Below, one piece after another: positions 11,074-32,380 of a stretch of DNA of 35,183 bases. The stretch is from Gemmatimonadota bacterium (GTDB lineage: Bacteria; Gemmatimonadota; Gemmatimonadetes; Gemmatimonadales; Gemmatimonadaceae). Below the pieces are notes generated by a model. The model had not been told where the DNA came from and ran no database searches. It was given only the letters and a program-made list of their open reading frames with translations. Every line of letters starts with the position of its first letter. Position 1 is the first letter of the stretch. The stretch spans positions 1 to 35,183 of the forward strand of contig JAJTGR010000015.1 of assembly GCA_021299375.1 (NCBI GenBank), written 5' to 3'. Both the position numbers and the translations under genes were made by a program.

Positions 11074-11115
11074 GACGGCGCGACGCTGAGACGGTGAGCC
11101 TGAGAGCGGAGCGTT

Positions 11116-11139
11116 GCGTGGGAGACCCGGGACGACGAT
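11116..11139 (+). repeat. 24-bp inverted repeat, left copy
   Basis: Contains GGGAGACCCGGGACGACG. It is the exact reverse complement of 12789-12812, and the two copies bracket the IS110 transposase. The flanking sequence also shows weaker similarity, so it looks like part of a longer dispersed intergenic repeat. Confidence 0.85.
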
Positions 11140-11171
11140 AGCGCATTGAGACGCTGAGCCACGCAGGAATC

Positions 11172-11330
11172 GAGAGTCCCGAGCGCTGCATCCGCCCGGG
11201 GGCGGCGCCGACGGGTCAGCACCGGGTTCGGTCGACCACGGTGGCACGTGCACCCCCCCCGCGCGCCGAGGCGCCCCGCGGATACCCCCCCCGCGGATGC
11301 CCCCCGCGGACGCCAGCGCTCGGAACTCTC
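11172..11330. repeat. Imperfect long inverted repeat enclosing C-tract repeats
   Basis: GAGAGTCCCGAGCGCT (11172-11187) is matched in reverse complement by 11315-11330 with one mismatch, and similarity continues inward (TCCGC followed by a G-run on the comparable strand). AGACGGTGAG at 11089-11098 is likewise matched at 11328-11337. Between the arms lie three copies of CCCCGCGGAYR-like units. Confidence 0.7.
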
Positions 11331-11613
11331 ACCGTCTTTCGTCGCTCACCCTCTCACCCCTTCTATGAGAAAGGTTTTGTAGTCAAGGGCGACGTGGCGC
11401 CCTTCCGGCTGGTGTCTGCTGGTGCTGCTGGTGTGGCTGGTGCGGCTCCCGCCGTGTCCCCGTACCACTCGTCTATCCGCACTCATCGCCGACGCGAGGT
11501 GCCTGTTGGGGTCCGATGGGTGGGCGTGTAGATGCTGCCAACTCTCTCACGCTCTCGGGGAGCTGAGGGTTGAACGCCGCATCCAGTGACGCGGGCTGGG
11601 ACAGCGGCAGCGA

Positions 11614-12675
11614 TTAGGCGGCGCGGTGCTCCAGGCGATAGGCGGTGCCGGTGCGCCAGAGCGCGTGGAGCAGGACCGCGAGTTTGCGGGCCACCGCGAT
11701 CACCGCGCGCTTCTTCGCATTGGGCCCGCCGCGCACCATCAGCGCGTCACCGAAGCGCCGGAGATCACACGGCGGGCCAACCGGACCGAGGATGTACTGC
11801 GCGGCGCCCACGAGATACCGCCGCCCCAGCGCATCGCCCCGCTCCGTGAGGCGCAGTTGCGGCGTGGACTGACTGCTCTCATCCAACTTGGGCACGAGGC
11901 CGAAATACGCCGCCGCCTGGCGACTGGTCGCGAAGCGCGAGGGATCCTCCACGAGCAGCACGAAGGCGAGCGCGGTCAAGGGCCCGACGCCGGGGATCTG
12001 CCGCAGGCGCTGCGTCTCCGGGTACGCGGTGGTCGCCAGGCGCTCGAGCTGCGTGTCGAAGCCCCGAATCTGCGTCGTCAGTGTCGCGATCAGCGTGAGC
12101 AACGGGGTGAGCGCGTCGGTGAGGGCCTCGGGGAGCGAGGCCGCCGCGCGGGTGGCAAACGCCTCGGCGCTCGTCGCGGGTAGCCGATGCCCGACGCGCT
12201 TCACCGCGCCGCGCCCATGATTGATCAGCGGCGTGCGCGCTTTCACGAGCTGATCCCGGGCGCGCAGCGGCGCGAGATGCGCCGGCGTCTGCTCGCCGCG
12301 ATGCTGAATGGCGTGCCGCAACTGCACGTCGACCCGCCCGAGGCGCGCGAGGTACGCGGCGTCCATGCGGTCATTGCGCTTCGTCCGCCGCCGCGCGCCG
12401 TACATCGCGCTCGGATTGGCGACGTACACGTCGTGGCCGTACGAAGCCAACTGGCGACGGATCCATGGCGAGTGGCTACCGACCTCCCGCACGACCCGCG
12501 CCGGCGCGCGCTCGGCGAACGCGTGCCGCACGGCGTCCGGCGTCGTGGCCACCTTCCGCTCCTCGAGCACGGTGCCCGCGGCATCCACCACACACAGCTG
12601 GCTCTGGCGATCCCCGAGATCGAGGCCGATGGTTACGGACGGGAACAGGGCAGTAGCTCCAGACGAGTGAGACAT
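11614..12675 (-). CDS. IS110-family transposase (DEDD recombinase)
   Basis: 353 aa, full length for the family. The N-terminal RuvC-like DEDD domain shows Asp19 (TIGLDLGDRQSQ), Glu64 (REVGS), and Asp102 with Asp105 (KRNDRMDAAYLARL). A helical linker leads to the C-terminal transposase_20 domain: helix-hairpin-helix RQIPGVGPLTALAF at about 225-238, then AAAYFGLVPKLDESSQ with Ser267/Ser268 as candidate nucleophile, and a closing KLAVLLHALWRTGTAY. No frameshift or stop is seen, so it could be active. Start ATG at 12673-12675. Whether it belongs to the IS110 or IS1111 subgroup is undecided. Confidence 0.92.
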   Translation of the reverse strand: MSHSSGATALFPSVTIGLDLGDRQSQLCVVDAAGTVLEERKVATTPDAVRHAFAERAPARVVREVGSHSPWIRRQLASYGHDVYVANPSAMYGARRRTKRNDRMDAAYLARLGRVDVQLRHAIQHRGEQTPAHLAPLRARDQLVKARTPLINHGRGAVKRVGHRLPATSAEAFATRAAASLPEALTDALTPLLTLIATLTTQIRGFDTQLERLATTAYPETQRLRQIPGVGPLTALAFVLLVEDPSRFATSRQAAAYFGLVPKLDESSQSTPQLRLTERGDALGRRYLVGAAQYILGPVGPPCDLRRFGDALMVRGGPNAKKRAVIAVARKLAVLLHALWRTGTAYRLEHRAA

Positions 12676-12693
12676 GGCCGACCCCCGGTCATA

Positions 12694-12707
12694 GGGCCTC
12701 GCGGCCC
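12694..12707 (-). ncRNA. Candidate bridge-RNA hairpin upstream of the IS110 transposase
   Basis: The minus strand reads GGGCCGCGAGGCCC: a perfect 5-bp stem closed by a GCGA tetraloop, 18 bases before the transposase start. IS110-subgroup elements carry their bridge RNA in this upstream end, so the 12676-12790 stretch is the logical location. Only this hairpin and a second short one are directly visible; the full RNA was not folded. Confidence 0.3.
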
Positions 12708-12788
12708 GCGTAAGTGGTCAACTGTGGCGCGCCCCGAGAGGTACGACGCCGTGACCAGCCGGGGGAAGGCCTGTCTCATTTCAACTCC

Positions 12789-12812
12789 ATCGTCGTCCCG
12801 GGTCTCCCACGC
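12789..12812 (-). repeat. 24-bp inverted repeat, right copy
   Basis: Exact reverse complement of 11116-11139. It lies 113 bases upstream of the transposase start codon and 88 bases before the GMC oxidoreductase start. Confidence 0.85.
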
Positions 12813-12886
12813 GACTCTGGCCTCTCTCACTCTCCACCGCACAGGCCGGGCCTGCCGTCATGCTGGCGTCTCTGTAGTCTCGGCGG

Positions 12887-22095: not shown

Positions 22096-22926
22096 ATGTC
22101 GAAGTCGCTGAAGCTCACGCTGGACATCCTGATCGGGGCCGTCGCCCCGGTGTTGATCCTCAAGTACGGTACGGCCTCGTTGGGTACGCTCCCCGCGTAT
22201 CTCACCGCCGCGCTCGTGCCGGTGGCGTGGGTGCTGCTCGACCTGTTCGTCATCTCGCGGCGCTTCAACTTCATCACCACGTATGGCGGCGCGTCGGCGA
22301 TCATGCGCGGGGCGCTCGCCTTCTGGTATGTCGACGGGGCCCTCTTTGCCTTCAAGGACAGCGCGAGCTACCTCCTCGCGTTTGTTGTCTTCGGGCTGAC
22401 GGCCTTCCTGGGCAAGCCCGTCACGCGCTCGATCGCGTTGCAGGGGCTCGATCCGGACACTCCGGAACGGGCGCAGCAGATGGACCGGCTGCTGGGCGAG
22501 CCCACCGTGCGGCGGGCGATGACCCAGGCCGCCCTCCTCATCGGCGTCACGAACCTGGTGGCGGGCGCGATCAACTACGTCATCAACTACCGGATGGTCG
22601 TGGCGCCGTTCAACACGCCGGCCTTCAACGACCAGGTGGCGAACGTCAACGCCATCACGCGCCTCGTCCTGGTGCTGCCGGACATGGTGGCGCTGTTCTT
22701 CGCCTTCAGTCTGATGTACAAGGCCATGTACGCGCTGCTCCCGGCTGAGGACGGTGCCGACCCGGACGCCGGTGAGTTCTGGGCGCTGCTGGCGCGCCGG
22801 GAGGACGCGATGGCCTTGGTGCGCGCCGGTGCGTCCGGCGCGGCTGCGGCCGGGGGGGGGCTCGCCGATACCGAGGTGCAGGCTCGCGCCGCCCGCCAGG
22901 CGCGAGAAGAGTTCGGGCTGCGCTGA
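22096..22926 (+). CDS. VC0807-like integral membrane protein
   Basis: 276-aa inner-membrane protein with about six hydrophobic segments: ILIGAVAPVLILKY, LTAALVPVAWVLLDLFVI, an internal pair around YLLAFVVFGLTAFLGKP, AALLIGVTNLVAGAINYVI and VLPDMVALFFAFSLMYKAM. The pattern, and the cytosolic loop RRFNFITTYGGASAIMRG, resemble the VC0807 family, whose function is unknown. The C-terminal 50 residues are soluble and Ala/Gly-rich, including a run of Gly codons at 22852-22860 (nine G in a row in the DNA). No Shine-Dalgarno; a possible third gene of the esterase-DUF2461 run. Confidence 0.7.
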   Translation: MSKSLKLTLDILIGAVAPVLILKYGTASLGTLPAYLTAALVPVAWVLLDLFVISRRFNFITTYGGASAIMRGALAFWYVDGALFAFKDSASYLLAFVVFGLTAFLGKPVTRSIALQGLDPDTPERAQQMDRLLGEPTVRRAMTQAALLIGVTNLVAGAINYVINYRMVVAPFNTPAFNDQVANVNAITRLVLVLPDMVALFFAFSLMYKAMYALLPAEDGADPDAGEFWALLARREDAMALVRAGASGAAAAGGGLADTEVQARAARQAREEFGLR

Positions 22927-23038: not shown

Positions 23039-23350
23039 ATGCCCGAGATGCCCATCGATATAGCGGTTCCCGCTCCGACCTACACCATCGAGGAGCGAGG
23101 TGACGTGCTCCGTGTGACCGGAATGGATGGCGGGCCCCTCGACCTGCGGGTGGACGAAGGGCTGGTGTTCGCCAAGTACCTGGGCCAGGAGCCGCGGCAG
23201 TGGGCGGAGGTGACGCTGCCGTCGGTCGTCGGGTTCTTTGCCGCCAATTCGCCCGTCGCGACCTTCCTGCGCCGTCAGGGCGCCTTCCCGCTCCGCCAGC
23301 TGCTGCTGGATGCGCTGTCGGGCGTGGGCGAGTCCGACCACGCAGCCTGA
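23039..23350 (+). CDS. Small soluble protein of unknown function (103 aa)
   Basis: Compact 103-residue acidic protein with a predicted beta-rich N terminus (TYTIEERGDVLRVTGMDGGPLDLRV) and helical C terminus (VVGFFAANSPVATFLRRQGAFPLRQLLLDALSG). No signal peptide, Cys or known motif. The ATG at 23039 is the first in-frame start consistent with gene spacing; a second Met lies three codons on. Notable: its last 18 codons are repeated at 26061-26114 after the mgtA gene, with 32 of 33 bases identical at the core, so a second partial copy of the gene exists downstream. No family recognised. Confidence 0.65.
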   Translation: MPEMPIDIAVPAPTYTIEERGDVLRVTGMDGGPLDLRVDEGLVFAKYLGQEPRQWAEVTLPSVVGFFAANSPVATFLRRQGAFPLRQLLLDALSGVGESDHAA

Positions 23351-23413
23351 CCGCCGCACCACCGACCGCCACGGGGCTCCTGCCCGGCGCTGGCTGTCGT
23401 TCCCGCGGCGTCG

Positions 23414-23419
23414 TAGAAT
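23414..23419 (+). promoter_or_regulatory. Possible -10 element TAGAAT upstream of mgtA
   Basis: TAGAAT lies 44 bases before the GTG start. A weak -35-like TGGCTG at 23391-23396 is 17 bases upstream. GGGAG at 23453-23457, 6 bases before the start codon, is the ribosome site. Confidence 0.35.
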
Positions 23420-23463
23420 GACGGAGGGCGCAGGAGCTCGCACCGTCAGGTAGGGAGTCGCGT

Positions 23464-25980
23464 GTGGCCATCGATACCTCGTCGGCCTTCTGGAGCCGCC
23501 CGATCGACGGCGTCTTGCAGGCCGTGGGGGCGACGCCGGCCGGCCTGGCTGCCGCCGAGGCCGCTGTCCGTCTCGCGCGCCATGGCGCCAACGCCCTGAC
23601 CTCCCGGCGGCGTCGGTCGGGACTGGCCGTCCTGCTGGCTCAGGCGCGCAACCCGTTGCTGCTGCTGCTCGCCGTGGCGGCCGGCGTTTCGTTCGCCAAC
23701 GGCGAGTGGGTCGATGCCCTCATCGTGCTGGCCATCGTGGGAGCCAGCGTCGGGACGGCCGTGGTCCGCGAATCGCGGGCCGAGGGCGCGTTGGCCGCGC
23801 TGCAGGACCGCGTGTGCATGCGGGCGCGCCTGTTGCGTGATGGTACGGTCGTGGAGGCGCCGGTCGAGGCGGTCGTGCCCGGCGATGTTGTCCTGCTCGG
23901 TGCGGGCAGTCTCGTGCCCGCCGATGGCGTCCTGCTGGAAGCGACGGACTGTTATGTGGCCGAGGCGGCGCTCACCGGCGAGGCCTTCCCGGTTGAGAAA
24001 CGGGTGGGACCGGTGGCTGCCGAGGCCCCGCTGGCCCAGCGCTCGGGTGCGGTGTTTCTGGGCACCAACGTGCGCAGCGGTGCGGCCCGGATGCTGGTGG
24101 TCCACACGGGGCGCGACACGGTGTTCGCGGGTATCGCGCAGCGCCTCGAGGCACACCCGCCGGAAACGGAATTCGACCGCGGGCTGCGCCGCTTCAGTTA
24201 CCTGCTCACCGCGTCGATGGTGGTCCTGGTGCTGTTCGTCTTCGCGGTGCACCTGTGGCGCGGGCGACCCGCGGTGGAGACGCTCCTGTTCGCCGTGGCC
24301 CTCGCGGTCGGGCTCACGCCGGAGCTGCTGCCCGCCATTCTCACCGTCAATCTCACCCGCGGGGCGGCCCTCATGGCGGGCCGCGGGGTGCTGGTGCGGC
24401 ATCTGAGCGCCATCGAGAACCTCGGCAGCATGGATGTGCTCTGCACGGACAAGACGGGCACCCTCACCGAAGGCGTGGTGGAGTTGGCTGGTGCGTTCGA
24501 CGGCCGCGGTGAGCCGTCGCCGGCGGTGCTCGCCCTCGCCGCCCGCAACGCGGCGCTGGCCACCGGGCTCGCCAGTCCGCTCGATACCGCCATCGTGAAC
24601 GCCCATGGCCCCATTGGCGCCGCGGCGCACAAACTCGCCGAACTCCCCTTCGACTTCGAGCGGAAGTGCGTGAGCGTGCTGGTGGAGGAGAACGGGGCCG
24701 TGCGGCTGGTGACGAAGGGCGCCGCGCCGCCGCTGCTGGCGTTGTGTACCACCCTCGCCGACGGGACGGCGCTCGATGCCGCCACGCGGCACGCGATCGA
24801 CGCGCGCATCGCGGCCTGGAGCACCGCGGGCATCCGTGTGCTCGCCGTGGCCGACGCCGACTGGCCTCGTGCCGTGCCGGCGTCGCTGCCGCGGACCGCC
24901 GAGCGCGACCTGCGCCTGCAGGGGTTTCTCACCTTCAGTGACCGGCCCAAGGCCGGGGCACGCGACGCCGTGGCCGACCTCGCCCGGCTTGGCGTGGCCG
25001 TGAAGCTGATTTCCGGCGACACCGCACTGGTCACGCAGCATGTGGCGGGCGAAGTCGGGCTGCGCGCTGACCGGGTCCTGACCGGGCGTGAGATCGCGGG
25101 ACTCGCCGACGACGCGCTGCAGTTGCGCGTCGAACAGACGGATCTGTTCGCCGAAGTGGACCCGGCGCAGAAAGAGCGCATCATCGATGCGCTGCGCGCC
25201 CGCGGCCATGTGGTGGGGTTCCTTGGCGACGGCGTCAATGACGCCCCGGCGATGCGCGCCGCCGACACCAGCCTGTCGGTGGACACCGCGGTGGATGTGG
25301 CGCGCGAAGCGGCCGACTTCGTGCTGCTCGAGCGCGATCTCGACGTGATCCGCCGCGGCATCGAGGAGGGGCGGCGCACCTTCGCCAACATCATGAAGTA
25401 CGTGCTCACCACCATGAGCGCCAATCTTGGCAACATGGTGAGCATGGCGGCGGCGTCGCTCCTCCTGCCGTTTCTTCCGCTGCTCGCGTCACAGATCCTG
25501 CTCAACAACTTCCTGTCGGACATCCCCGCCTTCGGGCTGGCCGACGACGCCGTCGACCCCGAACTCGTCGCCACGCCGCCTCGGTGGGACGTGTGGTTCA
25601 TTGCCCGATTCATGCTCGTCTTCGGCATCGTAAGCAGCGCCTTCGACGCCCTCACGTTCAGTGTGCTGCTGCGCCGCTTTCATGCCTCGGCCCCGCAATT
25701 CCAGACCGGGTGGTTCATTGAATCGCTGCTCACCGAGCTGGTGATCGCGCTGGTGGTGCGCACGCGCCGGCCTTTCTTCCGCAGTCGGCCGGGGGCGCTG
25801 CTGCTCTGGTCTACCGCCGGGCTGGCCGCGCTCTGCTTCGTGGTGCCGTGGCTGCCATTCGCGGACCTCGTGGGGTTCGTGCCGCTGTCCCCGGCCCTGC
25901 TGCTGGCGCTCGCAGGGATCACGGCGGCCTATGTGCTGGTGACCGAGGGGGCGAAGCGGGCGTTCTACGGGCGCGTGTAG
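23464..25980 (+). CDS. Magnesium-importing P-type ATPase, MgtA/MgtB type
   Basis: 838-aa P-type ATPase. The cytoplasmic actuator loop has LTGEAFPVEK (TGE), the membrane motif in helix 4 reads VGLTPELLPAILT (about 283-293), which is the P3B Mg2+-ATPase signature, the phosphorylated Asp329 is in CTDKTGTLTEG, the nucleotide-binding KGA follows, and the hinge is FLGDGVNDAPAMRAAD (about 586-601). Six C-terminal membrane segments end the protein. Slightly shorter than the roughly 900 residues of enterobacterial MgtA, mainly at the N terminus. GTG start with GGGAG 6 bases upstream. No MgtL-like leader or riboswitch was recognised. The duplicated tail of the 103-aa gene flanks it on both sides. Confidence 0.88.
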   Translation: MAIDTSSAFWSRPIDGVLQAVGATPAGLAAAEAAVRLARHGANALTSRRRRSGLAVLLAQARNPLLLLLAVAAGVSFANGEWVDALIVLAIVGASVGTAVVRESRAEGALAALQDRVCMRARLLRDGTVVEAPVEAVVPGDVVLLGAGSLVPADGVLLEATDCYVAEAALTGEAFPVEKRVGPVAAEAPLAQRSGAVFLGTNVRSGAARMLVVHTGRDTVFAGIAQRLEAHPPETEFDRGLRRFSYLLTASMVVLVLFVFAVHLWRGRPAVETLLFAVALAVGLTPELLPAILTVNLTRGAALMAGRGVLVRHLSAIENLGSMDVLCTDKTGTLTEGVVELAGAFDGRGEPSPAVLALAARNAALATGLASPLDTAIVNAHGPIGAAAHKLAELPFDFERKCVSVLVEENGAVRLVTKGAAPPLLALCTTLADGTALDAATRHAIDARIAAWSTAGIRVLAVADADWPRAVPASLPRTAERDLRLQGFLTFSDRPKAGARDAVADLARLGVAVKLISGDTALVTQHVAGEVGLRADRVLTGREIAGLADDALQLRVEQTDLFAEVDPAQKERIIDALRARGHVVGFLGDGVNDAPAMRAADTSLSVDTAVDVAREAADFVLLERDLDVIRRGIEEGRRTFANIMKYVLTTMSANLGNMVSMAAASLLLPFLPLLASQILLNNFLSDIPAFGLADDAVDPELVATPPRWDVWFIARFMLVFGIVSSAFDALTFSVLLRRFHASAPQFQTGWFIESLLTELVIALVVRTRRPFFRSRPGALLLWSTAGLAALCFVVPWLPFADLVGFVPLSPALLLALAGITAAYVLVTEGAKRAFYGRV

Positions 25981-25990
25981 ACGGCGTGGT

Positions 25991-26062
25991 ACCGCCGCTG
26001 CCCTGGAAGCCGGGCCGGCGTCCACGCTCGCCCAGGTTGCCGATGCGCGGGTTCACGATCAC
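25991..26062 (-). pseudogene. Fragment of the C terminus of an outer-membrane-type protein
   Basis: On the minus strand these codons read VIVNPRIGNLGERGRRPGFQ followed by GSGG, matching the last residues of the broken gene at 31308 (TIVNQRFGNLGELGRRFGFQ, GGG) at about 17 of 23 positions, with clear DNA similarity. There is no stop after the Gly residues and no upstream body. It is a stranded 3' fragment, abutting the end of mgtA. Confidence 0.7.
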
Positions 26063-26114
26063 GCTGCTGCTGGATGCGCTGTCGGGCGCGGGCGACACCG
26101 GGCACGCGGCGTGA
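26061..26114 (+). pseudogene. Duplicated 3' tail of the 103-aa gene
   Basis: The last 18 codons, TLLLDALSGAGDTGHAA and stop, match QLLLDALSGVGESDHAA and stop of the gene at 23039-23350. The first 26 bases of the core (26063-26088 against 23299-23324) are identical. The gene body is missing and the outer-membrane fragment is joined in its place on the other strand. Confidence 0.7.
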
Positions 26115-26277
26115 TGGGCCAGCGGGAAGGCAGAATGGTGACTCGGGAAGCTCCGGGGTGCGTGCCGCGTGATCAGGCGCCCCCGCAGCATCCGCGCTGA
26201 GGGTGTGCTGATCTGTAGCGACAGCCGATGGGCACGGCCCGAGCGCGAACTTGCCCGGTAATCCCCCCACTTGTAGA

Positions 26278-26294: not shown

Positions 26295-27122
26295 CTATGC
26301 TGCAAGGGCCAGCTTCATCGCCGGCGTGATTCCACCCAAAGCCATTTTGGGCCGTTCGTTGTTGTACGTCCAGAGCCAGTGAGTCGCTGCTGCCTGGACC
26401 TGTTCGATGGAATCGATCAGGGTTTGCGCGAGCCAGTCGTAGCGCACGGTCCGATTGTAGCGTTCGATGTAGGCGTTCCGTTGCGGTTGCCCTGGCTGGA
26501 TGAAGTCGAGCTGAATGCCGCGCCCCTTCGCCCACTGTGTCACGGTCTCGCTGAGGTACTCAGGCCCGTTGTCGCAGCGACTGACGGCGGGGACGCCACG
26601 CCATTCAATCAGCTGGTCGAGCGCTCGGACGACGCGCACCGCTGGCAATGACAGGTCCGCCTCGATGATCAGGCCTTCGCGATTGAAGTCGTCGAGGACG
26701 TTGAACAGCCGGAAGCTGCGACCGTCGGACAGCTGGTCGTGCATGAAGTCCATGGACCACACCCGGTTGGGTCCGTCGGGGACGGCCAACGGCTGTGGCG
26801 TCTCCCGCACGAGCCGCTGCCGCGGCTTGATCCGCAGGTTCAGCTCGAGCGCCCGATAGACGCGGTACACCCGTTTGTGATTCCAAGCGAACTGCTTCAC
26901 GTTCCGCAGGTAGAGGAAGCACAATCCGAAGCCCCAGGTGCGATACGTCGTCGTGAGGCGCACCAGCCAGTCCGCGACCTCGGCATCCTCGTCGACGCGG
27001 CGGCCCTGGTGCCGGTAGCAGGTCTCACTGATGCCAAATGTTCGGCAGGCGTGCTGGATGGTGGTGCGCTTGGTCTCAACCGCGTTCCGGGCCAGCGCGT
27101 GACGCTGCGCTGGCCTCACCAT
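26295..27122 (-). CDS. IS3-family transposase OrfB (DDE integrase)
   Basis: 275 aa from the ATG that overlaps the orfA stop (ATGGTGA). After the HTH_21-like helical part ([15 protein letters not shown]) comes the rve integrase core with the complete triad: Asp125 ([11 protein letters not shown]), Asp184 ([11 protein letters not shown]) and Glu220 ([14 protein letters not shown]). The Asp184-Glu220 spacing is exactly 35 residues, and W/Y residues after the Glu ([25 protein letters not shown]) complete the signature. It is in the -1 frame relative to orfA; a short AGAAAATGG stretch at the overlap could allow the -1 frameshift that makes the OrfAB fusion in IS3 elements. No inactivating change is seen. 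Confidence 0.93.
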
Positions 27123-27382
27123 TTTCTGGCGAGGGACTCCCGCAGCAGGTCCGCGCTCAGTTGCGCGTCGACATACAGCTTCTTGAGGCGCCGATTCTCC
27201 TCCTCGAGCTCCCTCATCCGCGTCATCAACGAGACATCCATGCCCCCGAACTTGGCGCGCCACTTGTAGAACGTGGCCGAGCTGATGCCGTGCGTCCGGC
27301 AGAGCTCCGGCACCGGGATGCCGCCCTCCGCCTCCTTCAGGACCGCGATGATCTGGCTATCGGTAAACCGTGATGTCTTCAT
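27116..27382 (-). CDS. IS3-family transposase OrfA (HTH, leucine zipper)
   Basis: 88 aa. N-terminal helix-turn-helix ([42 protein letters not shown]) of the transposase_8 type, followed by a coiled-coil [20 protein letters not shown] used for oligomerisation. These features are typical of the IS407 branch. Overlaps orfB by 7 bases. Its ATG at 27380-27382 is preceded on the minus strand by GAGGTTCC, which supplies a GAGG ribosome site. Confidence 0.92.
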
Positions 27383-27414: not shown

Positions 27415-27430
27415 TCCACTTTCGGCGACC
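27415..27430 (-). repeat. IS3 terminal inverted repeat (orfA side)
   Basis: Reverse complement GGTCGCCGAAAGTGGA; partner of 26278-26293. Confidence 0.75.
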
Positions 27431-27491
27431 GTGCTTTTCCGGGAGGATTACCGTCGCCCCCACGCGGTGGGACGAATGGAATGACGATTCG

Positions 27492-28136
27492 ATGACGGTC
27501 CCGCCGATCATGGCTGGCCTGAAGCAGCAAGCCCATCTTGTGCGGAGCGGCAATCCAACGGTGCTACCAGAAAGGAATCGTTTGGCACTCGCCCGGCTGG
27601 CGCAGCTGCTGGCCAGGTCTCCGGTACGACAGCGAATTGTCGCCCTGTTGGTGGCCGGCAGGGCGCGGAAGGAAATTGCGCGAGATCTCGGGCGGTCCCC
27701 GCACACGATCGATGCCCACCTCAAGGCCATCTATCGACATGTCGGCGTTGGCGACCGCGGGCGACTGATGCTGCTGGCGAGCCAGCTACCGGACCTGACG
27801 CCCCCCCCCCCGAAAATGGGGACTGTCGTTCCTAGGCGTCTCGCCGAAGAATGTCTCCGTACAATTCGCACCCCAGTCGAACGTGTGACGATGTTGGCGG
27901 GTCACGTCACATCACTTTGCGAATCGAAAAGCCATGAACCGCGCCCACTCACATGCCCGCCACTCGCTTCTCATTCCAGGCGTCATCACGCTGTTCCTCG
28001 TTGGCTGTGCGAAGGACCCGGCGGGCCGGGAGCCGAACAAGCCTGTCGTGGATCGCGGAACGCGCCCGTTCGCGGTGGTGGAATCACTGCACTTCGGCAA
28101 CCGCGAGCACGATCTCGTATTCGGAAGGTACGCTGA
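27492..28136 (+). CDS. LuxR-type HTH protein, probably N-terminally truncated, C11 tract in its tail
   Basis: The conserved part is residues 44-97: SPVRQRIVALLVAGRARKEIARDLGRSPHTIDAHLKAIYRHVGVGDRGRLMLLA, a GerE/LuxR DNA-binding domain. No receiver or sensor domain precedes it: 61 bases upstream the IS3 element begins, and the frame continues into the element, so the original 5' part may have been cut off. At residue 104 the gene runs into eleven consecutive C (27801-27811). As given, the frame continues for another 110 residues that look non-coding and overlaps the next gene by 203 bases. With one more C it would stop at 27833-27835 (114 aa), with one fewer at 27886-27888. It lies just upstream of the lipoprotein/peptide cluster and may regulate it. 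Confidence 0.6.
   Translation: MTVPPIMAGLKQQAHLVRSGNPTVLPERNRLALARLAQLLARSPVRQRIVALLVAGRARKEIARDLGRSPHTIDAHLKAIYRHVGVGDRGRLMLLASQLPDLTPPPPKMGTVVPRRLAEECLRTIRTPVERVTMLAGHVTSLCESKSHEPRPLTCPPLASHSRRHHAVPRWLCEGPGGPGAEQACRGSRNAPVRGGGITALRQPRARSRIRKVR
27801..27811 (+). repeat. Homopolymeric C11 tract
   Basis: Eleven C between GACG and GAAAATGGGG, inside the tail of the LuxR-type gene. Tracts of this length are prone to slippage in replication and to sequencing error; the reading frame after it depends on its exact length. Confidence 0.9.
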
Positions 28137-28953
28137 CAACGGCGTCGCTTTCTTTGATCGACTGAGCGGACGACTGCTCGTGGCGTCTCGCGGTAGCGAT
28201 ACGTTGCGTACCATTGGACGCACTGGTAGCGGCCCAGGCGAGTACCGCTCCGTCGTCGACGGGCTGCGGCTCGCCGACGAAGTGCTGGTGCTGGACGCGC
28301 TGCGTCGCATCGTCATCACGTACGATACGGGTGGTGCGCTACGCGATACCCGGCGAGTGGAAGGCGGCGCCCGGAAACTCCTCGCACGAAGCGGTACCAC
28401 GACGTTGGTGTCTGGACGATTCATGAGAACCGACAGGCCTGATACGGTAGACGCCGTTCTCCGTCTGGATCATGCTGGTGAAGCCACTCGCCATGTTCCG
28501 CTCCCCTTCCCGACAGACCCAAGCGGGAGACGGTTCTCGGACATCTACGTTGCAGCATGCGGGATCGGGCAGTTCGCCGCGGCGAGAGCGGACACCAACG
28601 TGGTATGGATCGTTGATGCCAGCACGCTGGCCGTAGTTCGTACCCTGAGCGTCTCGGTCGCATTCGCAGGCGTGAGTATGTCGCCGAGTCCCGAGAGCAC
28701 GCCGGACCCGAAGCGCTTTCGCTTCACCGGTCTGCTGGGTGATGAGACTGGATGCGTGATCATCTCGCCGCAGGATGTGGACGGCGACGCTCCACGGCTT
28801 GATCTCTACAGGATCGGCGCGAGCCAGTCGGGAGTTGATCTGTTCACGGTTCCTCTGCGGTTACCCGTGGCGTTTCGTCGAGATACGCTGTTTGTGCTTG
28901 ACGAGCACACCAACCCGCAGGTTGTCAGGATCCTTGCGGCGGAGCTGAAGTGA
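27934..28953 (+). CDS. 6-bladed beta-propeller lipoprotein A
   Basis: 339 aa. Signal peptide with lipobox LVGC (Cys25), so a membrane-anchored lipoprotein. The body consists of repeated beta strands, and the motif GRTGSGPGEYRSV at 95-107 is the hallmark loop of 6-bladed beta-propeller proteins of the NHL/DUF5128-like type (VLVLDALRRIVITYDTGG follows as a blade). Two further cysteines, Cys209 and Cys274, are the only ones in the mature chain and could form a disulfide. A second, divergent copy lies at 29599-30648. Between them are two small secreted Cys-rich peptides. Codon use here is less GC-biased than in the flanking housekeeping genes. The start ATG has no obvious Shine-Dalgarno (CGAAAAGCC precedes it). 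Ligand unknown. Confidence 0.8.
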   Translation: MNRAHSHARHSLLIPGVITLFLVGCAKDPAGREPNKPVVDRGTRPFAVVESLHFGNREHDLVFGRYADNGVAFFDRLSGRLLVASRGSDTLRTIGRTGSGPGEYRSVVDGLRLADEVLVLDALRRIVITYDTGGALRDTRRVEGGARKLLARSGTTTLVSGRFMRTDRPDTVDAVLRLDHAGEATRHVPLPFPTDPSGRRFSDIYVAACGIGQFAAARADTNVVWIVDASTLAVVRTLSVSVAFAGVSMSPSPESTPDPKRFRFTGLLGDETGCVIISPQDVDGDAPRLDLYRIGASQSGVDLFTVPLRLPVAFRRDTLFVLDEHTNPQVVRILAAELK

Positions 28954-29056
28954 TACGTCCCATTTCGCACGGACTCTCACGTGCGCGGCCCCCGCCGCGA
29001 AGAACAGCGACAAGCCAACAGCAATCCCAACTTTTTACGTTCGGAGAGAAGTGGCC

Positions 29057-29287
29057 ATGCGAAATCGATGGTTTTCGGCGGCTGCCGTCACCCTCATGTT
29101 AGGAGCCGCTGCGGTAGCACACGCCAATGAACTTCCTGGCGACGGTGGTGGAGACAATCCCTTTGGACCGACGAACCAGCTGGCGGAGGCGGTGAAGAAC
29201 CCATTCAACACGGTTATCTACTGGGAGTGCGCTGGTCCCTGCGCCAAGGGTGACAAGTGCTGCCGTCCTTACTACATCCATCCCTGA
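29057..29287 (+). CDS. Small secreted Cys-rich peptide 1
   Basis: 76 aa. Signal peptide MRNRWFSAAAVTLMLGAAAVAHA (cleavage after Ala23), then a Gly/Asp/Pro-rich linker with DNPFGPTN at 33-40 and a tail with Cys58, Cys62, Cys68 and Cys69 (ECAGPCAKGDKCC) followed by aromatic and basic residues. GGAGAG at 29043-29048 is 8 bases before the ATG at 29057 and only 2 before the in-frame GTG at 29051, which decides the start. The following gene begins 3 bases after the stop. The mature part, about 53 residues, is paralogous to peptide 2. No known family recognised; it could be a disulfide-rich secreted peptide, a RiPP-like precursor or a surface component. Confidence 0.8.
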   Translation: MRNRWFSAAAVTLMLGAAAVAHANELPGDGGGDNPFGPTNQLAEAVKNPFNTVIYWECAGPCAKGDKCCRPYYIHP

Positions 29288-29290
29288 GCC

Positions 29291-29518
29291 ATGCGCACAT
29301 TACGACTTCTTGCGGCGGGCTTCCTCGTGGCCGCTGCCCTGCTGCCAGCGCCCACCGCGCTGGCGCACGTCAATGCCGAGCCTCCTGATGATCCGGTCGG
29401 GCCAGTCAATCCCAATCCACCGCAAGGGCTGAAGATGTACGACTATGATTGGAGGAATGGCACCGCCAAGTGCTGGAACACCAGCTGCGGATTCGGCTGG
29501 TGCTGCTGGGTGTACTAG
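29291..29518 (+). CDS. Small secreted Cys-rich peptide 2
   Basis: 75 aa. Signal peptide ending ALLPAPTALA (cleavage after Ala25), Pro-rich linker with DDPVGPVN at 33-40, and tail KCWNTSCGFGWCCWVY with Cys61, Cys66, Cys71 and Cys72. Compared with peptide 1, the DxPxGPxN motif occupies the same residue numbers, and the distance from first Cys to the CC pair is ten residues in both. The C terminus is strikingly aromatic (three Trp, one Tyr in the last 15). No Shine-Dalgarno; only 3 bases separate it from the stop of peptide 1, so translation is probably coupled. A strong hairpin follows. Confidence 0.8.
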   Translation: MRTLRLLAAGFLVAAALLPAPTALAHVNAEPPDDPVGPVNPNPPQGLKMYDYDWRNGTAKCWNTSCGFGWCCWVY

Positions 29519-29531
29519 GAGAGCCGTAGAG

Positions 29532-29562
29532 GGGTGGCGCACGTTCGGATCGTGCGCCACCC
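29532..29562 (+). terminator. Strong 12-bp stem-loop between peptide 2 and propeller B
   Basis: GGGTGGCGCACG pairs perfectly with CGTGCGCCACCC around the 7-base loop TTCGGAT, starting 14 bases after the peptide 2 stop. Only TT follows the stem, so it may be a weak or factor-aided terminator, or an RNA-processing/stabilising hairpin that sets peptide mRNA above the downstream lipoprotein mRNA. Confidence 0.6.
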
Positions 29563-29598
29563 TTGCACTGCCACAGTCAACGTCGAGGAACAATACCG

Positions 29599-30648
29599 AT
29601 GCAACGCAGCTGGGCGGCCCCTTTCCTGTCGGTTGGCTTTGCCGTACTCCTGGCCAGCTGCCGGGAGCAATCGGGCGCGACCGAGACATCGGCATCACGT
29701 GAACCCGTCGGGGTCGTGCTGGCCGATGTGCCTGGTGATCCGGTTGCCCGCATCTACGGATTCGGAACCCATCCAGACGGGTACTTTCTCCTCGATGGGC
29801 CAGCCGCGCGCGTGCTGCTGATTGGCAGAGACGGTAGGGTCTCCCGGTCACTGGGCCGTCATGGGGGCGCACCCGGTGAATTTCGTGACGCGTCACTCGC
29901 GATTGCTGCCGCGGATGGTCGATTGGCAGTGCTCGACCCACCATTTATCACGGTGTTCAAGAAGTCGGGTGAGGTGAGGGCGCGTTTCATGACACGACCG
30001 ACTCTCGGTTCACTGGATTGGGCATGCAACGATAGCCTCCTGGTATTCGCTGGTCACGGTGATCTCGCGCCCGGTTCGAAGATTCCGGCCCTCGAGTTCT
30101 TCAGCGATGATGGCAGGCCGGTCGGTGGTACTCGCCCATGGCCGCGTTGGAGCCCCTCCATGAACAATTCCATTGCTGCACTTGCATTCAGCGAGCGGGA
30201 CTGTGTCATCACGGCCATGGAGGCGGTCGGCCGACAGTATGCCGTGGTCGATCTGCGCGCGGACACACAGGCAATCGAACCGCGCGATGTACCGTGGCCC
30301 GAGAACCCCGCCGAAGTCATGACGGCTGCGGTCAACGCGGGGAGCGATCCGGTGGCAGCCGGTAAGCTGGTGTCCACAAATACGGGCATCTGGAGAGTGG
30401 CCGGCGATACGGTGCTGGTGAGACAGGACAGTACGTCGGCAGATCTGGCAGTGTCATTCCGGTATCGCCTGGTTGTGAACGGCGTCGGTTCGAGCTCCGA
30501 TCGCACCGATCTCAAGATCTGGGAGGCGGACGCAGACAGCATCAGCTTCACCAGGGTGCGCGACGATGGAACCATCGAGGTCGGACGCGCTTCGATCCGG
30601 TGGCTTCTCGACCCGCTGCGAAAGGCGCTCCCCCGAGGCACACGGTGA
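29599..30648 (+). CDS. 6-bladed beta-propeller lipoprotein B
   Basis: 349 aa. Signal peptide MQRSWAAPFLSVGFAVLLAS with lipobox LASC (Cys21). The propeller hallmark is GRHGGAPGEFRDAS at 87-100, then IAAADGRLAVLDPPFITVFKKSGE as a typical blade. Exactly two mature-chain cysteines remain, Cys143 (DWACND) and Cys202 (ERDCVI). GAGGAA at 29584-29589, 9 bases upstream, selects the ATG at 29599 rather than the in-frame ATG 12 codons earlier. The stop overlaps the start of the thioredoxin-like gene (GTGA). Paralogous in architecture to lipoprotein A; the function is unknown. Related propellers often accompany secreted-peptide genes in Bacteroidetes (recollection, to be checked). Confidence 0.8.
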   Translation: MQRSWAAPFLSVGFAVLLASCREQSGATETSASREPVGVVLADVPGDPVARIYGFGTHPDGYFLLDGPAARVLLIGRDGRVSRSLGRHGGAPGEFRDASLAIAAADGRLAVLDPPFITVFKKSGEVRARFMTRPTLGSLDWACNDSLLVFAGHGDLAPGSKIPALEFFSDDGRPVGGTRPWPRWSPSMNNSIAALAFSERDCVITAMEAVGRQYAVVDLRADTQAIEPRDVPWPENPAEVMTAAVNAGSDPVAAGKLVSTNTGIWRVAGDTVLVRQDSTSADLAVSFRYRLVVNGVGSSSDRTDLKIWEADADSISFTRVRDDGTIEVGRASIRWLLDPLRKALPRGTR

Positions 30649-31226
30649 GTGTCTTCAGATCGGGCGCGCTTGTCCGCCTACTGTCCGCCGTTGTGTACGG
30701 ACTGGCGCTCGCGGGCTGTGGTCCATCCAGCGTTCGTACGTCGGAAGAGGCTCGCGCGACTGTCGCAGCGCGTCCCCCGATCCCGCTGATCGCCGGCACC
30801 GCTCTTCGCGACTATGCCACCAATACACCCGTCAGTCTCGGGACGGTGTTGGGCCCAGACGGCGACGTCGTGCTGGTGCTCGATCAGCAGGCCTGCGAAA
30901 GCTGCCTGGCGATCGATGTGGAGATCCGTGCACTGCGTGCGCGCAAGCCACGGCAGCCGGTTCTTGTGTTCACAGACTCGGTGAACGCCGGCTCGGTTTC
31001 GCAGTACCTCGCATCCATGCGGTCGCCTGGCCGATTGCTCGTCGTGCCAGCCACCGAGATGGCGATGCTGACCATGGGCGTTGACGGCGCGCTGACGACC
31101 CATCTGGTCGATGGCGCCGGTCGTGTCCTCTTCTCGCAGACCCGTGTACCCGGAGCGCGTCAGGAGCTCCTCGTGGAGGATCTCAGGGCGCTGGAGGGAC
31201 TCGTGTCTGCTACACCATCCAGCTGA
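30645..31226 (+). CDS. Thioredoxin-like lipoprotein with CESC motif
   Basis: 193 aa. Signal peptide with lipobox LAGC (Cys25). Residues 70-150 look like a thioredoxin fold: strand DVVLVLDQQ, then the redox pair Cys84-Glu-Ser-Cys87 at the head of a helix (CLAIDVEIRALRA), strand PVLVFTDS and a cis-Pro-like LLVVPATEMA. Overall it resembles the redoxin/TlpA-like proteins that act in the periplasm. The GTG start overlaps the propeller B stop by four bases, so the two are coupled. Given four Cys in each nearby peptide and Cys pairs in both propellers, a role in their disulfide chemistry is a reasonable guess, not shown. Confidence 0.75.
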   Translation: MSVFRSGALVRLLSAVVYGLALAGCGPSSVRTSEEARATVAARPPIPLIAGTALRDYATNTPVSLGTVLGPDGDVVLVLDQQACESCLAIDVEIRALRARKPRQPVLVFTDSVNAGSVSQYLASMRSPGRLLVVPATEMAMLTMGVDGALTTHLVDGAGRVLFSQTRVPGARQELLVEDLRALEGLVSATPSS

Positions 31227-31244
31227 CCGGGCGGCTGCCGGGGC

Positions 31245-31294
31245 GACGGTGCACCACGCCAGCGGACGGCCGTCTGCGTTCAGCCGGCACCGTC
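31245..31294. terminator. Possible bidirectional terminator between convergent genes
   Basis: GACGGTGC (31245-31252) pairs with GCACCGTC (31287-31294), and inside them GCGGAC/GTCTGC (31262-31277) forms a second hairpin. It lies between the convergent thioredoxin-like gene and the outer-membrane pseudogene. Confidence 0.45.
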
Positions 31295-31307
31295 CGCCGC
31301 CGCTCGC

Positions 31308-32380
31308 TCAGCCCCCGCCCTGAAACCCGAACCGGCGCCCGAGCTCGCCGAGGTTGCCGAAGCGCTGGTTCACGATCGTGTTGTAGATGGAGCCGAACGT
31401 GTAGCCGATGCCGATGTTGGTGTTGTAGCGGAAGTTCGTCTGCAGCTGCTGGCGCTGCGTGAGGATGTCGCGCTCCGACTGCGCGTTGGCGGCGATGTAG
31501 ATCTGGTCGCGCACGCGTGAAGCCGAGCCGCGGAAGTTGAGCGAGAACCCGCGGCCGAGTCGGAGCTCCACGAAACCCGACAGCGTCACGTGGTTGCGAT
31601 TGGGGTCGTGGAGGCACTGCGCCCCTTCGAGCGTGAGGTTGGTATTGCCCCACTTCTGCCGCTGAGTCAGAGCCAACAGCAGCGTCTGGTTCACCCGCGT
31701 TTCTTCGTCCTGCCCGAACACCGTGGTGCTGCAATACTGATAGTAGTTCGGCCCCACGCAATACAGCGCCGTGAGCTGGCGCCGCGTGGCCTCGGTCCAC
31801 GGGAAGTAGTTGTACTCGATGGCTGGCGAGACGCGCAGCGACAGCTTCTGGTTGAGCACTTCGCTGAAGCCGGCGGACACCGTACGAGCTGCTCGTCGTT
31901 CGCCGACAGGTTGCCGTCCACGCGATACAGCCAGAGGTTCCACCGGTCCTTCACCGCCTTCGCGTTGAGCGACGGGGCCACGACGCCGTTCACCAGCTCC
32001 ACGCGCAGGCGTGACGCGATGGGGGTGCGGGCCACGTAGGGCGCGAGCCCCAGCTGGAAGGTGCGCAGCAGCTCGCGACGGACGCGGTCGTCGGCGTGGT
32101 TGGGGAGCGTGGTGATGGTGAGCGTGTCGACCTTGCCGGCGTACCCCTTCTGGGCAAGGAAGTTGACGGTGATCTGCCGACCGCCGTTGGCAGCGTTGAG
32201 GCCGGTGAGGAGCAGATGCACATCGGCGTCGAAGCGGTCGCGCACCCAGTTCAGCAAGCCCATTTCCTGCACGAAGAAGTTGCGGTCGCAGCCGCGCACG
32301 CCGCCTCGGGCGGCCGCGGACTCCACGACGGCGGCACCGAGAAGGGCGGCCCGCATCACCGGCATATGGAACAAACGCAT
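31308..32380 (-). pseudogene. Frameshifted outer-membrane-type beta-barrel protein
   Basis: Two frames continue one protein. The N-terminal part, from ATG at 32378-32380, has a signal-like MRLFHMPVMRAALLGAAVV and a domain with FFVQEMGLLNWVRDRFDADVHLL and ARTPIASRLRVELV, ending in WNLWLYRVDGNLSANDEQLV. The C-terminal part continues one base back as TVSAGFSEVLNQKLSLRVSPAIEYNYFPW and ends in alternating barrel-like strands and GRRFGFQGGG. The switch lies at about 31880-31895. Total length 1073 bases is not divisible by three. A -1 change (loss of one base) restores the frame. From memory, intact relatives have extra strands between the halves, so a larger deletion is also possible. Sequencing error cannot be excluded. 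Function unknown. Confidence 0.7.

Follow-up and report, generated by a model that had tools for sequence, protein, structure and literature searches.

A 121-base scrap of two gene tails in a Gemmatimonadaceae genome, probably the relic joint between side-by-side copies of one block

We have analysed a stretch of 35,183 nucleotides from a Gemmatimonadota bacterium (the window), which is contig C31 of a genome assembly of 4.48 Mb in 116 contigs. Comparison of the window with itself reveals two families of direct repeats, and these meet between mgtA and an IS3-type element in a scrap of 121 bases. The gene at 31308 is called omp here, which is a working label that no family backs. The features of the locus are given below; left and right copy refer to the two copies of a block that we propose further on.

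22096 to 22926, plus strand: gene for a VC0807-family membrane protein (NF041646, above cut-off), the conserved left anchor of the locus
23039 to 23350, plus strand: p103, the intact 103-amino-acid source gene, without a Pfam or NCBIfam family
23464 to 25980, plus strand: mgtA, magnesium-translocating P-type ATPase (TIGR01524, 709.5 bits, cut-off 610.75), content of the putative left copy
25994 to 26060, minus strand: omp-tail copy, 22 codons of the omp 3' end, decayed and with the stop lost, 82% identical over 67 nt to 31311-31377
26061 to 26062, no strand: the joint, two bases (AC) from neither gene, with no clear microhomology in alignments and on reading
26063 to 26114, plus strand: p103-tail copy, 17 codons including the stop, 87% identical over 52 nt to 23299-23350
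26295 to 27382, minus strand: IS3-type element with two overlapping ORFs (Pfam rve_3/rve, HTH_Tnp_1), first part of the content of the putative right copy
27934 to 31226, plus strand: lipoprotein/peptide cluster (from reading of the genes and family profiles), second part of the content of the putative right copy
31308 to 32371, minus strand: omp, the source gene, broken, with its N-terminal part and an internal stretch missing relative to the G044 protein (tblastn)

An earlier note on this DNA had described the scrap as a scrambled junction, in which the minus strand carries the last codons of the gene at 31308 and the plus strand, directly adjoining, carries the last 18 codons of the 103-residue gene. 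The minus-strand half is confirmed. Here 55 of 67 nucleotides are identical to 31311-31377 without gaps (E = 5e-12 in a whole-genome search), and 17 of 23 residues agree with omp at the protein level. The match stops one codon before the stop of omp, which is not kept. On the plus strand 45 of 52 nucleotides are identical to 23299-23350 (E = 1e-10, whole-genome search). This 3' end is real too, but instead of 18 codons it comprises 17, the stop among them, and one further base. All seven differences from p103 fall within the last 26 of the 52 nucleotides; the first 26 are identical to p103 and are built of common codons. The two tails do lie side by side, but with the bases AC between them. 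The bodies of both genes were said to be missing, which is an apt description, as only the 3' ends are present, and both source genes stand elsewhere in the window, as claimed, where they still flank the scrap. The term outer-membrane gene was not confirmed, since Pfam yields no significant family for omp or for its full-length relative in genome G044. The orthologues of omp are open in relatives while the gene is broken here, and a paralogue, 62% identical, lies on contig C39 of the same genome.

Short similarities in codon-biased, G+C-rich sequence could arise by chance, a doubt that the earlier note had itself raised for the outer-membrane side. The common codons of the first 26 nucleotides on the p103 side speak for this, and an apparently unrelated match in genome G041, 94% identical over 32 nt, overlaps them. 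However, the two tails score 63.5 and 68 bits, against 46 bits for the highest-scoring apparently unrelated match to 25991-26114 in 30 genomes of the genus. None of 300 composition-preserving shuffles reached the score of either tail, and both tails are in the register of their genes and stand side by side. Chance can be dismissed with next to no reservation, and, as judged by these alignments, both similarities are real. In the organism's own genome the two source places are the only matches to the scrap below E = 0.001, and at this threshold there is no third copy of either tail and no further joint. The joint was not found elsewhere among the 30 genomes of the genus searched, nor was any intermediate state. 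Folding of the scrap does not indicate a structured RNA (z-score -0.01), and the scrap has no evident function. A scan of 374 ORFs at 28 loci (468 kb, relatives included, a small sample centred on this locus) gave no other comparable tail scrap. Among the remaining hits of at least 40 bits, a single one is a tail, which lies next to a local repeat in L136, and the others are pieces from heads or middles; those from heads in L063 and L064 were taken for the paralogous kinase-like genes found there.

The substitutions in the tails bear on their age. In 18 aligned codons the omp-tail copy and its source differ at 10 sites. The copy has five non-synonymous changes and one synonymous change, while the source has four synonymous and no non-synonymous changes (Fisher p = 0.048, with 10 sites only). 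Thirteen genomes have an omp orthologue with at least 79% identity, and all of these but G043, 12 in number, served as outgroups for this polarisation; some sites are weakly polarised, and one rests on a plurality of 6 of 12. This pattern suggests that the omp-tail copy decayed free of selection while omp itself stayed constrained, and the scrap looks to have formed while omp still worked. On the p103 side the tails are too variable between species for the changes to be polarised. Identity does not decide where the omp-tail copy belongs, as it matches the omp of G044 at 45 of 54 positions and its own omp at 44 of 54. By eye, the p103-tail copy resembles its own p103 only. The divergence also bears on the possibility that two strains or two places were misjoined in the contig. 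With a genome in 116 contigs this is conceivable, but exact identity to a source extends over 26 nt at most, nothing is shared across 26061, and the copies have diverged, one of them with its own decay. We regard such an artefact as quite unlikely.

The gene for the VC0807-family membrane protein is present in 29 of the 30 genomes of the genus, all but G023. p103 occurs in eight of the 30, including this one (the other loci of the family are L112, L134, L056, L057, L060, L061 and L136), with one p103 in each. In all seven other genomes an HDOD-domain gene follows p103 directly on the same strand (the adjacency is taken from coordinates, and the Pfam HDOD assignment is shown for the G042 copy). 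This is not the case here. In this genome p103 has lost its HDOD partner, and the locus no longer contains HDOD. G044 and G042 have the membrane gene, p103, HDOD and then omp in the opposite direction; in this ancestral-looking state p103 and omp are neighbours that converge. In G005 and G015 the membrane gene directly adjoins omp, with p103-HDOD elsewhere. In G009 and G017 p103-HDOD follows the membrane gene, and omp was not seen there. In G001, G004 and G022 the membrane gene and omp are separated by about 8.3 kb, which includes two large genes that look kinase-like by eye. A decayed HDOD gene, spread over several frames with two TAG codons, lies at the locus in G006 (L116), where p103 is absent; this is independent wear of the same module. 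Because the contents differ among these genomes, the site is variable across species.

We suggest that 25994-26114 is probably a relic joint between side-by-side copies of a block that ran from the p103 tail to the tail of the convergent omp. A second copy of this block would have been joined beside the first, so that the right-hand boundary of one copy met the left-hand boundary of the other. The outer ends of the first and the second copy would then be the intact p103 (left) and omp (right), respectively, and the fused inner ends would show the omp tail followed by the p103 tail, both without bodies. The fusion looks illegitimate, as it has two filler bases but lacks clear microhomology. Since p103 stands on the left and omp on the right in the ancestor, the order omp tail, p103 tail is what the addition of a second block copy is expected to give. 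It is the only one of the eight possible arrangements (two orders, and two orientations for each tail) that results from joining the right end of the block to the left. This is the arrangement found, with the omp tail on the minus strand, the p103 tail after it on the plus strand, p103 outside on the left and omp outside on the right, as in a tandem-type joint, and the single-copy ancestral arrangement for such a joint exists in G044 and G042. The joint also has an end without homology, or with a few bases only, as in a scar of homology-facilitated illegitimate recombination. After the fusion the omp-tail copy would have decayed, the original content of the block (the HDOD gene, judging from relatives) would have been lost from both copies, and the copies would have come to hold mgtA and the IS3/lipoprotein genes that they contain now. 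We infer that one joining event made the joint, through either a duplication in the lineage or the addition of a second allele by homology-facilitated illegitimate recombination.

The earlier note implied a different history, in which complete second copies of both genes once stood at the scrap and each lost its body. This would be compatible with the two tails, and the fusion of two 3' ends in the scrambled junction is real. But the history takes more steps, and both deletions would have had to stop at one point. Relatives were checked for complete second copies of both genes and none was found; no examined genome has two p103 genes. The complete second genes are not needed, because both source genes still flank the joint, and the ancestral order in G044 and G042 makes them unnecessary. 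The bodies need never have been at this position, since p103 and omp stand outside, as an event of this kind leaves them. We consider the loss of full copies improbable.

Site-specific integration could also leave gene tails as attachment-site repeats, with islands inserted at gene 3' ends. Direct repeats of gene tails do flank each content segment here. However, the genes scanned between the tails include no integrase, just the IS3 transposase, and the repeats are merely 82-87% alike, not near-identical. Nor would simple insertion at either gene place the omp tail before the p103 tail. This explanation appears very improbable to us. The earlier note had placed the junction beside mgtA and the IS3, but neither could be tied to the making of the joint: the tails meet 235 bp away from the nearest IS3 gene, and mgtA fills one of the copies. 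A joint made by the IS3 was set aside. The IS3-type element is present in a single copy in the genome. Elsewhere in the window, an IS110-type transposase gene (11614-12675) lies within 11093-12835, flanked by a 47-nt inverted repeat with 81% complementarity, and short repeats of the CCCCCTGGCTCGCG unit occupy 51-137 at the left contig end.

The contents of the two copies bear on how the joining may have come about. Nothing of the interior is common to both, as mgtA on one side and the IS3 with the lipoprotein cluster on the other are unrelated. The nearest relative of mgtA is 64% identical and comes from a Candidatus Binatia MAG (named genome collection), and the best match in the genus (40 relatives) is 46% identical. 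The cluster at 27934-31226 consists of two propeller-like lipoprotein genes, two small Cys-rich secreted peptides and a thiol-disulfide-like protein. For the protein of 27934-28950, 52 of 200 other genomes of the order have a match, all of them weak, at 45 bits or less. By these matches, neither mgtA nor the lipoprotein cluster is native to the genus, and both may have entered with the joint; no source was found for mgtA beyond the 64% match or for the lipoprotein gene beyond 45 bits. The cluster may resemble the NVEALA/6-bladed-propeller clusters of Bacteroidetes. Within it, the first propeller-like lipoprotein gene has a weak DUF5128 match, the thiol-disulfide-like protein is DsbE-like by a weak match, and the peptides of 29057-29287 and 29291-29518 are adjacent and secreted, with Cys-rich aromatic tails and no significant family. 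To the right of the IS3, a frame that is open from 27273 encodes at 27470-27830 what by eye resembles the DNA-binding end of a LuxR-type protein, possibly another truncated gene.

Past the tails the sequences do not align, neither beyond the p103 tails (26115-26275 against 23351-23463, with 97% of shuffles as good) nor beyond the omp tails (25850-25993 against 31150-31310, 92%). No remnant of HDOD, mgtA or the p103 3' flank beside the joint, and no HDOD remnant in the window, stands clearly above background. On both strands, 2-3% of 100 shuffles equalled the highest score, that for 27421-27933 against the HDOD gene of G044. Since the copies share nothing between the tails, a plain tandem duplication needs later replacement of the content of at least one copy, with edges at the gene ends. 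Thus, the non-aligning flanks and the lack of a clear HDOD remnant argue against plain tandem duplication, and for content replacement or the stacking of alleles.

Two accounts of the joining event remain, and we give them about equal weight. One is a tandem duplication of the block in the lineage, with the contents of both copies turning over afterwards, a history to which we assign somewhat less than an even chance. Tandem duplication is the commoner kind of event when compared with homology-facilitated illegitimate recombination. The order of the joint is exactly that of a duplication, and the p103-tail copy is closest to its own p103. There is documented precedent in bacteria for duplications whose joint lacks homology; PMC11111574 cites many that have no sequence identity there. 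Against this account, extra replacements that end at gene ends are needed, and there is no trace of common content.

The other account is homology-facilitated illegitimate recombination, in which incoming DNA with p103, mgtA and omp paired by homology near p103, and its omp tail was joined illegitimately to the resident p103 tail, which stood before the IS3/lipoprotein allele. We hold it to be plausible, again a little short of an even chance. A single event then accounts for a difference in contents that begins with the first base past the gene ends, and allele comparisons retain coding ends, not spacers. The site is also known to hold different contents by species, which are nothing, p103-HDOD or the 8.3 kb of kinase-like genes. 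Displaced 3' ends left over at other loci are explained by homology-facilitated illegitimate recombination in PMC5361080, but there the process is called rare relative to homologous recombination. In addition, since the p103-tail copy is like its own p103 only, the second allele must have come from an unsampled near relative. More tentatively, the scar may record the illegitimate stacking, in a single event, of two alternative alleles, p103-mgtA-omp and p103-X-omp, that belong to a single variable locus.

The scrap can be compared with known systems. It shares with the join points of bacterial tandem duplications that a block's right end runs into its left end, that the gene copies on the outside were whole at joining, and that there is little or no homology at the joint. 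In contrast to these, the second copy is unrecognisable here, with unrelated content, and no more of the joint than 121 bp is left. In the Vibrio T6SS immunity-gene arrays and the orphan 3' regions of Rhs genes, as discussed in PMC5361080, a new allele likewise stands beside the old one with a truncated 3' end as the scar. Here, however, the tails belong to two ordinary chromosomal genes and have no evident use, and the donor is unsampled. The tandem duplication-random loss model, in the mitochondrial literature consulted, also has duplication, partial loss in each copy and telling remnants. There it is mainly a model for mitochondrial gene order, whereas the order outside the scar is unchanged here. 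We found no publication on this locus, in literature searched mostly without the name of the host genus and thus a weak guide to what is in print.

The scrap is genuine and is ordinary genome wear from an event of a known kind, and it changes nothing in the known systems. It provides a small, well-documented example of how accessory genes accumulate between a pair of conserved ones, and 121 bases still reveal part of the order of events. A reversed pair of 3' ends from neighbouring genes points to a duplication-type joint, rather than to lost gene copies. If the stacking of alleles is true, accessory DNA that lies between conserved convergent genes of this genus would accumulate allele by allele, without an integrase, and the process could be counted from the reversed pairs of gene tails that it leaves as scars.
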